This document shows, piece after piece, positions 14,382-20,356 of a stretch of DNA of 20,356 nucleotides. Each line of letters begins with the position of its first letter. The stretch's first letter is position 1. The DNA comes from a virus: positions 1 through 20,356 of IMG/VR virus record IMGVR_UViG_3300044626_000110; one strand, written 5' to 3'. The notes under the pieces were generated by a model. The model searched no databases. It was not told the origin of the DNA and was given only the letters and a program-made list of their open reading frames with translations. A program made the translations under genes and the position numbers.

Positions 14382-14827
14382 GGGCGGAAGACTGGCTGGT
14401 TCATAACTTCCGCAACGGGCTCCGCCTGTCCGACCCCGCTATTGAGTGGCTGATGGACCTGTGGGCGGCTATCCAGTTCTTTGACGACATTGCCGACAAG
14501 GACGACGTCGACCGCGACCGGCTGGACCGCGTCATCGCCTCGACGCTTGTCTCCATGCCGACAAACGCCTTCTTCGTGGCTAACGCCGACATGCTGCGCC
14601 CGGCTCTGGCCACGGCGCTGCTCAAGTGGAAGGCCGCGGATGAGGCCGAGCTGCGGGGCGAGGCCGACGAAAAATCGTTCGTGTGGCGCGCGTCGTACTA
14701 TGATATCGTCCTTCTCGTCGTCGCGTTGACGCACGGGTTTGAAGAAGCTATGGCCCGCGCCGTTGACGTCATGTCGCTCTACGGCGAGAAGTTTGCCGAC
14801 TATCGAAGGGAGTTTCCCAGTGCCTGA
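14378..14827 (+). CDS. Conserved helical phage protein of unknown function
   Basis: This 149-aa protein starts with GTG overlapping the previous stop, with AAGGGA about 8 nt upstream. It is all helical with many acidic and aromatic residues: LSDPAIEWLMDLWAAIQFFD, DIADKDDVDRDRLDRVI, SFVWRASYYDIVLLVVALTH, VDVMSLYGEKFADYRREF. The DDIAD stretch superficially recalls metal-binding Asp motifs of isoprenoid enzymes, but nothing else supports that. The hydrophobic stretch YDIVLLVVALTH is too short and interrupted for a clear membrane span. It sits at the head of the ejection-protein genes and overlaps the next start by 8 nt, so a virion or ejection-related role is possible. Confidence 0.72.
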   Translation: MRAEDWLVHNFRNGLRLSDPAIEWLMDLWAAIQFFDDIADKDDVDRDRLDRVIASTLVSMPTNAFFVANADMLRPALATALLKWKAADEAELRGEADEKSFVWRASYYDIVLLVVALTHGFEEAMARAVDVMSLYGEKFADYRREFPSA

Positions 14828-15539
14828 ACCCGTTTCCGCCATAATTGCATCCAGCGTTGGAAGTTCAATCATTGGCGGCATGTCGGCCAAGAAGGCCGCC
14901 AAGGCGCAGACGCAGGCCGCGCAGCAAGCGTCTGATGTCCAGCGTCAGATGTTTGAGCGTCAGGTCGAGCTTCAGGCGCCGTTTCGCCAGGCGGGCCTTA
15001 CGGCGCAGAACCGCTTCATGGAGCTGATGGGTCTGGGAGAACCGACGGGCGGGGCCGACTACGGCCGCTACGCACGCGACTTCAGCATGCAAGATTACCA
15101 GCAAGACCCCGGCTACGCCTTCCGCCTGTCGGAAGGCATGAAGGCGCTGGAGCGGTCGGCGGCGGCGCGGGGCGGGCTTCTGTCCGGCAGCATGATGAAG
15201 GGCGCGCAGCGCTTTGGGCAAAATCTTGCCAGCGAAGAATATCAGAACGCCTTCAACCGCTATCAGGTCAACCGCGCCAACCAGCTTGACCCGCTGTCCT
15301 CGCTGATGGGCGCAGGCCAGACCGGCGCTAACATATTGACCAGCGCGGCTGGCGACTTGGGCGGTCGGCTTGGGGAAAACTACATGCAGATGGGCAACGC
15401 CCGCGCCTCTGGCTACATAGGCCGCGCCAACGCCCTTAGCGGAGCGCTGGGGACGGTCGGTAACTTCTACGCCAACCAGCCGCTTAACGACGCGCTGACA
15501 AAATACTACAACACCGCTATGCCAGGGTCTGTCACTTAA
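14820..15539 (+). CDS. Ejection protein 1 (small internal virion / DNA transfer protein)
   Basis: This 239-aa protein starts at the GTG at 14820, 7 nt after GGGAG. An earlier in-frame ATG (14739) lies deep inside the preceding gene. The N-terminus has a short hydrophobic, Gly/Ser-rich stretch (AIIASSVGSSIIGGM), then an Ala/Gln-rich coiled coil (KKAAKAQTQAAQQASDVQRQ). The segments FRLSEGMKALERSAAARGGL, LSGSMMKGAQRFGQNLASEE and YQNAFNRYQVNRANQLDPL are a recognisable signature of a widespread podovirus internal protein, often annotated as a DNA transfer protein. It probably leaves the virion during infection and helps line the channel through the envelope. It heads a block of three ejection genes, as in P22 and T7. 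Confidence 0.82.
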   Translation: MPEPVSAIIASSVGSSIIGGMSAKKAAKAQTQAAQQASDVQRQMFERQVELQAPFRQAGLTAQNRFMELMGLGEPTGGADYGRYARDFSMQDYQQDPGYAFRLSEGMKALERSAAARGGLLSGSMMKGAQRFGQNLASEEYQNAFNRYQVNRANQLDPLSSLMGAGQTGANILTSAAGDLGGRLGENYMQMGNARASGYIGRANALSGALGTVGNFYANQPLNDALTKYYNTAMPGSVT

Positions 15540-16728: not shown

Positions 16729-19245
16729 ATGGACGTTAAACTTCCAGACGGGACGATTATTAAAAACGTACCGGAAGGTATGACAAAAACGCAGCTGCGT
16801 GAAAAACTGATCAAGAACGGATTCAAGCCGGAACAGTTTGAGACGCAGGTACCCAAAGACGTCGTCAAGCCGTTTACCAAAGAAGACCTTGCGTTGCAGC
16901 CCCGTACACCTACAGACGTGGCCGGTGCGATAGCCGATCTGCCTATGGGTTTTGGCAAGACCGGGATACCGTCGGTTCTGGCCGGCGCATACCGCGGCGC
17001 GCGCGACGTTACTGACACGCTGGTAGGGCTTGGCCAGGACGCGTTGCGCGTCAGCCAAGCTGGAGGCGCGGCCCTGCTGGGACAGGCCCCGTCAGGGTCT
17101 AGGGACGTTATGGCGGAGATGTCGCGCGAGGCCGCGACCCCTCGCACCCCGTCGGAAATTGACCGCATCAACGCTGTCGCGCGGGAACAATACGCGCGCA
17201 ATTACGGACCTAATTTGCTTGCTCAAGCCGGTCGGTTTGGTGGTCAAGTTGCCATGACCGCCCCTGTTGGGGGAGTTTTAGGGGCCGGCGCAAAAAAATT
17301 AGGTGCAAACGCTCTAGCCAACTCTTTAATATCTGGCGGGTTTGTGACCGGCGCGACGCCTAGGGGCGTGTTTGGAGCGCTTAGTGACGTCACCACCCGC
17401 GCCGCCGGCGGCGCGGTTACAGGCGGTACACAGGCGGCTCTGGTGGGTGACGATCCTACAGCGGGCGCCGTCATCGGCGCGGCTTTACCCGCCCTTAGCG
17501 TGCCGTTAGCTAAAGGCGTAGGCAGTGCTTTGGGTAACTTTTTTGACGCGGCGACCGGCCAGCTGGGTAAGGTGCGCGCGTCTAAGATTGTGCAGGACGT
17601 TCTGGGGCCGGACTTTGACAAAGCCGTTCAGATCCTGAAGAACGCTCCGAGCAACGTCACGCCGGAGCAGGCGCTGGTCGCCGCCGGCATCCCGCCCGAG
17701 CGCATAAAGGGTTTCATTGCGCTTGGCGAGTGGTCCGCCAAACGAGACCCAGAGGCAATTACCGATATGCTGCGTACCAGCCAGACCGCAGGCCGGCAGG
17801 CATTGCTGGATATTGTGAGCGGGGGCACGACCGAAGCCGAACGAATTGGCGCGCAGCGCGCGGCGACTGGGAAACTTCAGCAAACGACGGCGGCGTTGCG
17901 CGAAAAGGCGCTGGGCAAGGCGCAAGAGATAACGGCGAGGATGCAGTCGCTATCAAAGAAGATTGGCAGCGAGTCAAAGACTTACGAAGGTCTAGCAAAA
18001 GAAGCAGAGTCGCTGACTAAGGCTAGCGACGACATGTTCGCGCGAGCTGCGGAAACTTCGCAAAAACTTAAAGGCAAGACCGGTCCTGTCGACGTGTCCC
18101 CTGAAGGAACGGTCGAGTATTCTACCGGGCAAGATCTCAAAGGGTCCGCGGCGATGATATCCAGCGCCGCAAAGAACGCCAAGCGTCGTCTGGACGCCGC
18201 GCAAAAACAGCTTGCTGCCTTAGAACAAAAAGGGCTGAAGCCGCTACGGGTAAACGAAGTATCGGCGGCTATTAGTAAAATGCTGCAAAGCTCAAAAATT
18301 GGTATTGAGGACACTAACGCCAAAGCGTTGAACAAAGTCCTTGAAAAGCTGGACGAGTGGAGTGACCCTAACGGAATTATTGACGCCGACGCACTGTACG
18401 AGATCCGCAAGTCTACAATTACCTCAACTATCAACGAGCTTCTTGGCGGCAAGGTGACCGATGCAGAGGTGAAAGCCCGCGCCGCGTCGCTGCTCGCACA
18501 GATCAAGCCGCTGATTGACGGTGCTATAATTCAGGCCGGCGGCGCGGATTGGGGCAAGTATCTGCGCGCGTATTCGGAAGGCGCGAGAGAGATCGAGCGC
18601 CTACAGATGGCTGGCGAAGCCGCCAACTTGTTCCGCACTAACCCTACGAAATACGTTGACCTGGTGAGCGGCAACGACACCAAAACAGTGTCCGACATAT
18701 TTGGCGGCGGCGTATATGACTTTGAGTCTGCTATGGACCCCACCATACAGCTTACGGGACGGCAAAAGAAGCCGCGCCCGCCAGCGGGCCCCGACCGTCG
18801 CGTTGTAATGCGAGAGGTAGCCGAGCAGCTTAAAGTAGACGAGAAGATAGCCTCGCAGGCCGCGCGGGGCTACGACCGTCTTCAGGAGGCGTTCCGTTCT
18901 GTTGAGCCTCGCCCCTTGGGGTTCCCGTCTCTGCTTAACCGCACCGCCACCATCGCCAACGTGGCGCTGGACGCGCTGGAGAAGCGCTTCGGCAAGGACA
19001 CTATTGACACGCTGATCACGTCCATGCGCGAAGGCAAGGGCGTGGTTGAGGCCGTGTCTGTTCTGCCGGCGAACGAGCGCAACGCCGTGATACGCTTCCT
19101 CAGCGGGACAATGGAGCTGAAGACGCCTACCGCGAAGGCAGCGGCCGCTGCGGCCGGCGCCGCCGCGACGAAGGGCGCGGCTACAGCCGCCGCGCCGCCG
19201 AACGCCATGAACCGAGACAATCGTAACGCTATGAGGCCGCGATGA
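16729..19245 (+). CDS. Ejection protein 3 (large internal virion protein)
   Basis: This 838-aa protein has its ATG after GAGG. The start MDVKLPDGTIIKNVPEGMTK is the familiar N-terminal motif of large phage ejection proteins. Residues ~170-285 contain several Gly/Ala-rich hydrophobic segments (VAMTAPVGGVLGAGA, AGAVIGAALPALSVPLAKGV) that could enter membranes. From ~370 long charged helices follow, including KLQQTTAALREKALGKAQEI and AQKQLAALEQKG. The block DPNGIIDADALYEIRKSTIT, then YLRAYSEGAREIERLQMAGE and VYDFESAMDPTIQL, is typical of the family. The end is Ala-rich low complexity. No transglycosylase motif was seen. It is likely extruded with the other two ejection proteins to form the trans-envelope conduit. 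The stop overlaps the next start (ATGA). Confidence 0.84.
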   Translation: MDVKLPDGTIIKNVPEGMTKTQLREKLIKNGFKPEQFETQVPKDVVKPFTKEDLALQPRTPTDVAGAIADLPMGFGKTGIPSVLAGAYRGARDVTDTLVGLGQDALRVSQAGGAALLGQAPSGSRDVMAEMSREAATPRTPSEIDRINAVAREQYARNYGPNLLAQAGRFGGQVAMTAPVGGVLGAGAKKLGANALANSLISGGFVTGATPRGVFGALSDVTTRAAGGAVTGGTQAALVGDDPTAGAVIGAALPALSVPLAKGVGSALGNFFDAATGQLGKVRASKIVQDVLGPDFDKAVQILKNAPSNVTPEQALVAAGIPPERIKGFIALGEWSAKRDPEAITDMLRTSQTAGRQALLDIVSGGTTEAERIGAQRAATGKLQQTTAALREKALGKAQEITARMQSLSKKIGSESKTYEGLAKEAESLTKASDDMFARAAETSQKLKGKTGPVDVSPEGTVEYSTGQDLKGSAAMISSAAKNAKRRLDAAQKQLAALEQKGLKPLRVNEVSAAISKMLQSSKIGIEDTNAKALNKVLEKLDEWSDPNGIIDADALYEIRKSTITSTINELLGGKVTDAEVKARAASLLAQIKPLIDGAIIQAGGADWGKYLRAYSEGAREIERLQMAGEAANLFRTNPTKYVDLVSGNDTKTVSDIFGGGVYDFESAMDPTIQLTGRQKKPRPPAGPDRRVVMREVAEQLKVDEKIASQAARGYDRLQEAFRSVEPRPLGFPSLLNRTATIANVALDALEKRFGKDTIDTLITSMREGKGVVEAVSVLPANERNAVIRFLSGTMELKTPTAKAAAAAAGAAATKGAATAAAPPNAMNRDNRNAMRPR

Positions 19246-19412
19246 AGGACGATGTAGAGGCGCGTCTGGACACGCACGAGGCGGTGTGCGCGGAGCGTTA
19301 CCTAGGCATCAACGCGCGCCTGAAGCGCCTGGAGGGCCTGTTTATCGCTGGCGTTGGCGCGATCCTGACCGGGCTGGTGGCTATAGTGGTGCAGTTGAAC
19401 GCATGGCAATAA
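19242..19412 (+). CDS. Small single-span membrane protein, putative holin-type lysis protein
   Basis: This is a 56-aa protein. The ATG overlaps the ejection-protein stop (ATGA), and the gene itself overlaps the endolysin start by 10 nt. Residues 1-32 are charged and helical (MKDDVEARLDTHEAVCAERY, INARLKRLEG). Residues ~33-51 form one clear membrane span (LFIAGVGAILTGLVAIVV), and a short QLNAWQ tail follows. Small coil-plus-span proteins next to endolysins (XhlA-like) often act as holins or holin partners. The coupling with the endolysin supports a lysis role, but one span alone does not prove pore formation. Confidence 0.75.
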   Translation: MKDDVEARLDTHEAVCAERYLGINARLKRLEGLFIAGVGAILTGLVAIVVQLNAWQ

Positions 19413-19756
19413 CGCACGCATCCCGCCTCAAGGGCGTCCACCCGGATCTTGTCCGCGTCATCGAGCGCGCAGGCAAGGACGCGGACTTCATGGTCATCGA
19501 GGGCGTCCGCTCGCTGGCGCGGCAGAAGGACCTGGTCGCGGCGGGGGCGTCGAAGACGCTGCACAGCCGCCACCTGACCGGCCACGCCGTTGACATCGCG
19601 CCCCTGATCCGTGGTAAGCTGTCTTGGAGCTGGGACGTCTTTCACACGCTGGCTCCGGTCATCAAGGCGGCCGCCAAGGCCGAAGGGGTGGCTGTAACTT
19701 GGGGCGGTGATTGGAAAAATTTTCCTGACGGCCCTCATTGGGAGCTACCCCGGTAG
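19403..19756 (+). CDS. Endolysin, VanY/M15-type L-alanyl-D-glutamate peptidase family
   Basis: This 117-aa protein starts at the ATG at 19403 inside the membrane-protein gene, since the family begins about there (RLKGVHPDLVRVIERAGK). The zinc-peptidase motifs are complete: EGVRS at 33-37, SRHLTGHAVDIAP with His57 and Asp64, and FPDGPHWE with catalytic-type Asp109 and third zinc ligand His112. The 130-133 Asp-His spacing known from the T5 enzyme is reproduced here as 109-112. It cuts peptide cross-bridges or stems in peptidoglycan to lyse the host. It lacks a signal peptide, so release should depend on a holin. No cell-wall-binding domain is present, as usual for phages of Gram-negative hosts. 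Confidence 0.92.
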   Translation: MAITHASRLKGVHPDLVRVIERAGKDADFMVIEGVRSLARQKDLVAAGASKTLHSRHLTGHAVDIAPLIRGKLSWSWDVFHTLAPVIKAAAKAEGVAVTWGGDWKNFPDGPHWELPR

Positions 19757-19765
19757 GCGCACAAA

Positions 19766-20356
19766 ATGGTCAACGCGTTTAACCCTACGCCTAAAAATAA
19801 AATGTCCTTCGACCTGTCGCCAGACGCGATAGCGCGCATGACGGCGCCGCAACCTCAAAAGGTAGTGTTCACGGCGCGGGGGGTCGACCCCGAGATGCGC
19901 AAACGCGCGCAAGAGATAAAACGAAAAAGTCTTCGCTCCGCGTTTGCGTCAAAAGAAGTTTCCGACACCTATCGGGATCAATTAGCTGAACAAATATGGA
20001 AAGAAACCGGGTTATGGGAGTACCAGCCTAACGTGTGGGTGAAAGAAATTCCTGACAACGAAACAACTCTTAACGCCCCGTTCCCCAGCCCTGAAATGCT
20101 TCCGCGTCTTGGTAATGGGCGCACAAAATATTCGCGGCCTGTTTTTACGACCAATAGCGGCGAGCAGTATATGAGCGGTGACACGGTCGCTACGGGTATG
20201 CTGCCTGACATTATGAAACGCGGCGCAAACGATGAGCTTTACAAGCTATACCCTGAGTTAAACAAAGTGCCGATGGAGGTTTACAACGACTACATTACAA
20301 GCCCTTCGGCGTATATTGGCGGCTACGTAAACCCAAAAACAGGCGGGCTAGCGGTG
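19766..20356 (+). CDS. N-terminus of a probable polyvalent-type protein with LPD23-like region (3' partial)
   Basis: The ATG at 19766 opens a frame that runs off the right edge; 197 codons are visible. The start is basic and low in structure. Residues ~70-100 (DQLAEQIWKETGLWEYQPNV, WVKEIPDNE) and residues ~145-197 (GMLPDIM, DELYKLYPELNKVPMEVYND, YIGGYVNPKTGGLAV) match my memory of two linked blocks. These are the IWKETGW...W..EI block and the LYPEL..V.V...GGY.P.TG.I.V block of phage polyvalent proteins (large polyvalent-protein associated region LPD23). Such proteins are often very long, join several enzyme domains, and are thought to be delivered with phage DNA. The ribosome-binding site is weak. 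The gene is certain, the domain call moderate, and any enzyme domain lies outside the window. Confidence 0.65.
   Translation, partial: MVNAFNPTPKNKMSFDLSPDAIARMTAPQPQKVVFTARGVDPEMRKRAQEIKRKSLRSAFASKEVSDTYRDQLAEQIWKETGLWEYQPNVWVKEIPDNETTLNAPFPSPEMLPRLGNGRTKYSRPVFTTNSGEQYMSGDTVATGMLPDIMKRGANDELYKLYPELNKVPMEVYNDYITSPSAYIGGYVNPKTGGLAV

Follow-up and report, generated by a model that had tools for sequence, protein, structure and literature searches.

Among the closest described counterparts of the gene studied here are the zincin-like metallopeptidases (MPTases) of polyvalent phage proteins, for which autoprocessing, action in the virion or action on proteins of the injected host have been proposed, autoprocessing in particular for P1 DdrB (Iyer et al. 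2017, PMC5512222). The family described below shares with them a phage late-gene neighbourhood and, in its complete relatives, the HExxH helix and a C-terminal glutamate; however, those MPTases are modules of giant proteins whereas ours is a one-domain type of about 370 aa, and it is placed here in none of the 12 MPTase clades of PMC5512222.

A second point of comparison is the LPD23 domain (large polyvalent protein associated domain 23, PF18838), uncharacterised until now. Pseudomonas phage H66 gp60 (3787 aa) carries an LPD23-HExxH domain at residues 2137-2379 (E 2.5e-64), as does phage AF gp16 (2213 aa; E 2.1e-72); both share this domain with the present family but are multidomain proteins, which the present type is not. 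The H66 gp60 record bears the note 'verified by mass spectrometry as part ...'. A search of the available literature collection returned no paper usefully naming LPD23 or the Pfam entry DUF6782 (PF20573), and we know of no experimental protease activity for any LPD23 protein. Here we describe a gene at the end of a viral record of 20,356 bases (the whole of which we call the window) that very probably encodes, as a small protein in its own right, a relative of the zinc-protease segment of such giant, virion-carried phage proteins.

The gene at the window edge and its complete relatives

Nine bases after the stop codon of the endolysin gene an ATG starts a frame that stays open to the last base of the window, 197 codons in all, and that contains IWKETGLWEYQPNVWVKEI and LYPEL...IGGYVNPKTGGLAV (Table 1); the ORF and blocks named in an earlier note on this DNA are thus real, and the rest of this gene copy lies beyond the end of the record. 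Two viral loci with relatives, L002 and L003, were found. The L002 sequence begins within this endolysin gene too and agrees with the window over its first 48 bases; its positions 49-1152 encode a complete orthologue of 367 aa that is 60% identical across the visible part. Compared with this orthologue over 188 codons the window gene has a dN/dS of 0.35, which marks the ORF as a protein-coding gene under selection. The L003 relative is longer (620 aa) and consists of the same domain followed by a C-terminal tail. This C-terminal part (L003:10961-11779) ends in EGEYVIPSDVVRRKG and gives a weak match (41%, E 0.4) to gp62 of Roseobacter phage CRP-603, the gene of which sits between portal and coat genes; this may indicate that an LPD23 protease here carries a tail of virion type.

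Table 1 Features of the window at and upstream of the edge gene
Feature	Position	Strand	Basis or remark
DNA-ejection protein homologue, P22 gp7-like	14739..15539	+	PHROG 598, E 2.4e-42
Small ORF, 56 aa, one hydrophobic stretch, 5' of endolysin	19242..19412	+	Sequence
M15 endolysin gene; left border of inserted gene	19403..19756	+	Pfam Peptidase_M15_4 E 1.8e-12; PHROG 465 endolysin E 2.6e-48
ORF, predicted N-terminal part of stand-alone LPD23-type metallopeptidase	19766..20356	+	197 aa visible, open at edge
LPD23-like block, residues 74-103, ..IWKETGLWEYQPNVWVKEIPDN..	19985..20074	+	Sub-threshold PF18838 (positions 29-58 of 58) and 34.5 bits, independent profile
LYPEL block	20246..20260	+	Alignment of LPD23 proteins
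IGGYVNPKTGGLAV strand region	20315..20356	+	Alignment with L002 and L003

The edge had left room for a giant ORF, and the earlier note had taken the gene for the start of a polyvalent-type protein. On the strength of the complete L002 gene we reject the giant ORF, and since the relatives show a short protein the reading as a large polyvalent protein finds no support: the L002 protein has one recognisable domain, whereas a polyvalent protein is defined by at least two domains with distinct activities in a single polypeptide, and the window copy is presumably like L002. Domain searches with the relatives of the window protein detected no ADP-ribosyltransferase, methylase or helicase domain. The peptidase, also among the enzymes suggested, fared better. 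Past the position of the window edge L002 reads HELQH and L003 HETQH (within T/AxxHExQH), and in the alignment the edge falls some 30-40 residues upstream of this HExxH helix in both. A downstream glutamate is likewise present in the two relatives (RGEEALAR and RGSEVLAT); the candidate third zinc ligand is the first E of the LPD23 motif GEVEAR, which in the alignment corresponds to E256 of L002 and to an E of L003 and is kept in most LPD23 proteins.

A probable accessory gene in a late operon

Upstream of the LPD23-type gene the window holds P22-type coat, head-closure (Hc3) and DNA-ejection genes, followed by lysis genes. This is the late/virion gene neighbourhood by which polyvalent proteins are recognised, and the nearness to ejection-protein genes had been correctly observed. 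An ORF of 838 aa (16729-19245) that separates the ejection-protein block from the lysis genes has neither a PHROG nor a significant Pfam match; compared with phage L006, parts of it are 89-92% identical and its middle is strongly diverged, and it is possibly a further ejection protein. At the other end of the window, the C-terminus of the first ORF (3-809; SDARIKKNI..., recognised by eye only) looks like the end of an S74-type tail-spike intramolecular chaperone. The 56-aa ORF before the endolysin has no match in Pfam and is, judged by its hydrophobic stretch, a probable lysis-cassette membrane protein.

On the other side of the gene the L002 locus continues with a Pam3-gp28-type holin (Pfam E 7.5e-16) and with small ORFs that, to go by sequence, look like a spanin pair. 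Across much of the head, tail and lysis region phage L006 shares 80-92% identity with the window; in L006 the stop codon of the endolysin gene overlaps the start of the holin gene, leaving no gene in between. The same empty site is found in L291 and L292, whose holins are 98-100% identical, and no copy of the gene was seen elsewhere in these three records, which are possibly fragments. In L002 the insertion swaps the overlapping endolysin/holin start for a different arrangement, in which a new AAGGAG site precedes the holin. The inserted gene has a GC content of 0.49-0.51 against about 0.64 in its flanks. The border sequences GGGAGCTACC (left) and AGGAGCTGCC (right) of L002 may mark a recombination site. 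Neither a promoter nor a terminator of its own was detected above chance for the L002 gene. The lysis neighbours, in other phage pairs, evolve at a dN/dS of 0.05-0.09, below the value of the LPD23-type gene, which looks like a recently gained, selected and fast-evolving accessory gene. As a separate observation, the first 60 codons (19766-19945 versus L002:49-228) differ from those of L002 by a dS of 0.26 and the remainder by about 1.5, so that, from this substitution pattern, the gene looks like a mosaic joined by recombination at an internal junction.

This setting bears on what a protease encoded here might do. It could act as a maturation protease on head, tail or ejection proteins of the phage itself while particles are assembled, without any action on the host: other solo LPD23 genes adjoin portal genes (at least seven proteins) as well as terminase, scaffold and head-closure Hc3 genes, and autoprocessing is what has been proposed for P1 DdrB (PMC5512222). 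Yet the gene lies in the lysis cassette rather than the head block, and it looks dispensable, for three close sister phages do without it at this site, which makes an essential maturation step improbable; we consider such a role rather unlikely. Alternatively, its exact position between endolysin and holin and the AAGGAG site that arrives with it might point to a late, non-packaged moron that aids lysis timing, release or superinfection exclusion inside the infected cell. The position in the lysis cassette is, however, not conserved, as the L003 gene lies in a tail/ejection block near a GH108 ORF and a polyvalent-type ORF of 1718+ aa, and this second role appears decidedly unlikely. The large L003 ORF (15322-20475) has a HETLGH motif of its own and no significant match in Pfam or PHROG.

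LPD23 membership and a probable zinc-protease fold

With the Pfam LPD23 model the window copy scores 14.7 bits (E 0.027) and the L003 protein 20.2 bits (E 5e-4), both under the gathering cut-off of 27 bits, and the L002 protein gives no match. An independent profile of 72 LPD23 domains, from which the window family was left out, scores the L003, L002 and window proteins at 60, 52 and 34.5 bits, respectively, the best of 900 shuffled sequences reaching 4.0 bits. This bears out the LPD23 resemblance proposed in the earlier note, which holds for the ETG...EI block, whereas LYPEL and GGY come from further downstream in one and the same conserved region. The assignment to LPD23, made at the level of sequence, is strong, and the edge gene is very probably a divergent relative of this family and not a new system.

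The common features are the ETG...W..EI block, the F-A-x-G-A / L..A helix before it and the AYPxL block after it, in which Y is kept in 97% and P in 100% of the aligned LPD23 proteins. There are also differences: the window family reads ETGLW-EYQPNVW where LPD23 reads ETGWF-GxDGKW, and in its relatives HExQH is not followed by the classical EGFAxGG and GEVEAR has lost its second E. In a joint alignment of 65 members Pfam detects LPD23 in 63 and DUF6782, annotated as 'putative metallopeptidase', in 24; the window, L002 and L003 proteins do not match DUF6782.

The link between LPD23 and the protease motif was assessed by searching viral contigs for a DNA pattern that encodes ETGW-x7-W-xx-EI and does not include HExxH. 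Among the 80 ORFs recovered, two were not LPD23 and five were cut by a contig end; in all 73 others, true LPD23 ORFs that are not truncated, an HExxH follows at a distance of 87-180 residues (median 105), compared with 3.8% of 140-residue control windows from the same proteins. That LPD23 is instead a separate binding domain travelling with a zincin, so that the window protein, too short to show HExxH, might have no working protease, would agree with the two distinct Pfam entries, but is very unlikely given this invariant linkage, the way in which LPD23 strands align together with zincin cores (described next), and the retention of HExxH and the glutamate in both L002 and L003.

AlphaFold models the L002 protein with a mean pLDDT of 66, confidently mainly in residues 40-240, and a classical solo LPD23 protein (L174, 319 aa) with a pLDDT of 84.8 and a pTM of 0.78. 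The latter model runs from a strand and two helices through the LPD23 hairpin and more strands to the HELQH helix and a C-terminal GEVEAR helix. In VIA-align its first match is Deinococcus PprI/IrrE (Z 6.7, 100 residues, rmsd 3.3, model residues 77-294), with the Spartan-type 6mdw at Z 4.8 (model residues 37-294); Z-scores below 8 are weak and not decisive alone. IrrE also comes first in a profile search of the PDB (E 0.0087), and Foldseek gives a weak best match to a zinc-binding metallo-peptidase (E 0.042). For the L002 model Foldseek returned nothing significant, probably because of its low-confidence tails, and VIA lists the zincins 3lmc and selecase among weak rows. PprI/IrrE and SprT/Spartan are thus the best structural matches of the solo LPD23 model, but they are cellular DNA-damage proteases with 12-17% identity, and the fold alone is common. 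Because the aligned ranges include the LPD23 strands, the best reading of LPD23, on these models, is that it forms the N-terminal portion of the protease fold. Taken together, it is highly likely that the gene encodes an LPD23-type metallopeptidase.

The subfamily itself is sparsely represented. Neither the named phage genomes, searched with the proteins of the window and L002, nor the bacterial genomes scanned with A2 yielded a relative, a Pfam LPD23 search of 385 genomes of one class gave a single sub-threshold match, and no additional member turned up at 160 loci surrounding related endolysins, from which we conclude that it is rare in the collections searched.

A candidate for packaging and ejection

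The connection drawn in the earlier note to polyvalent-type phage proteins was right, and its reading of the gene as an ejected early effector is plausible, considering the related domains in virion proteins and the late-operon placement; for solo LPD23 proteins we found no virion proteomics. We propose that the gene product would be a stand-alone gluzincin-type metallopeptidase of the LPD23 family, about 370 aa in length, in which LPD23 would supply the N-terminal strands and helices of the protease fold, and the HExxH and downstream glutamate past the edge would supply the zinc ligands. As an accessory cargo gene between the endolysin and holin of a P22-like phage it would be transcribed by read-through from the late operon; the protease would then be made late, packaged in the particle, ejected and able to cut a host protein at an early stage of the following infection. 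Packaging and ejection seem the most likely course because the protein would be late-made, homologous domains occur in virion proteins and the gene is absent from sister phages. For the window protein we infer zinc binding, proteolysis, packaging, ejection and a host target alike, and we put the probability of the whole reading at roughly 0.5.

IrrE/ImmA-type proteases cut regulators. A bolder version, in which LPD23 is the N-terminal half of one phage-specific gluzincin family whose solo form is swapped in and out of the lysis cassette and, packaged and ejected, destroys a host defence or regulatory protein, is rather unlikely as a whole.

The window type is a small, single-domain and exchangeable version of a module that is otherwise buried in virion proteins of 2000-4000 residues, and in this form its protease activity and its target would be directly testable. 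For the family at large, the results suggest that LPD23, so far uncharacterised, and the metallopeptidase region invariably found after it would better be given a single label.
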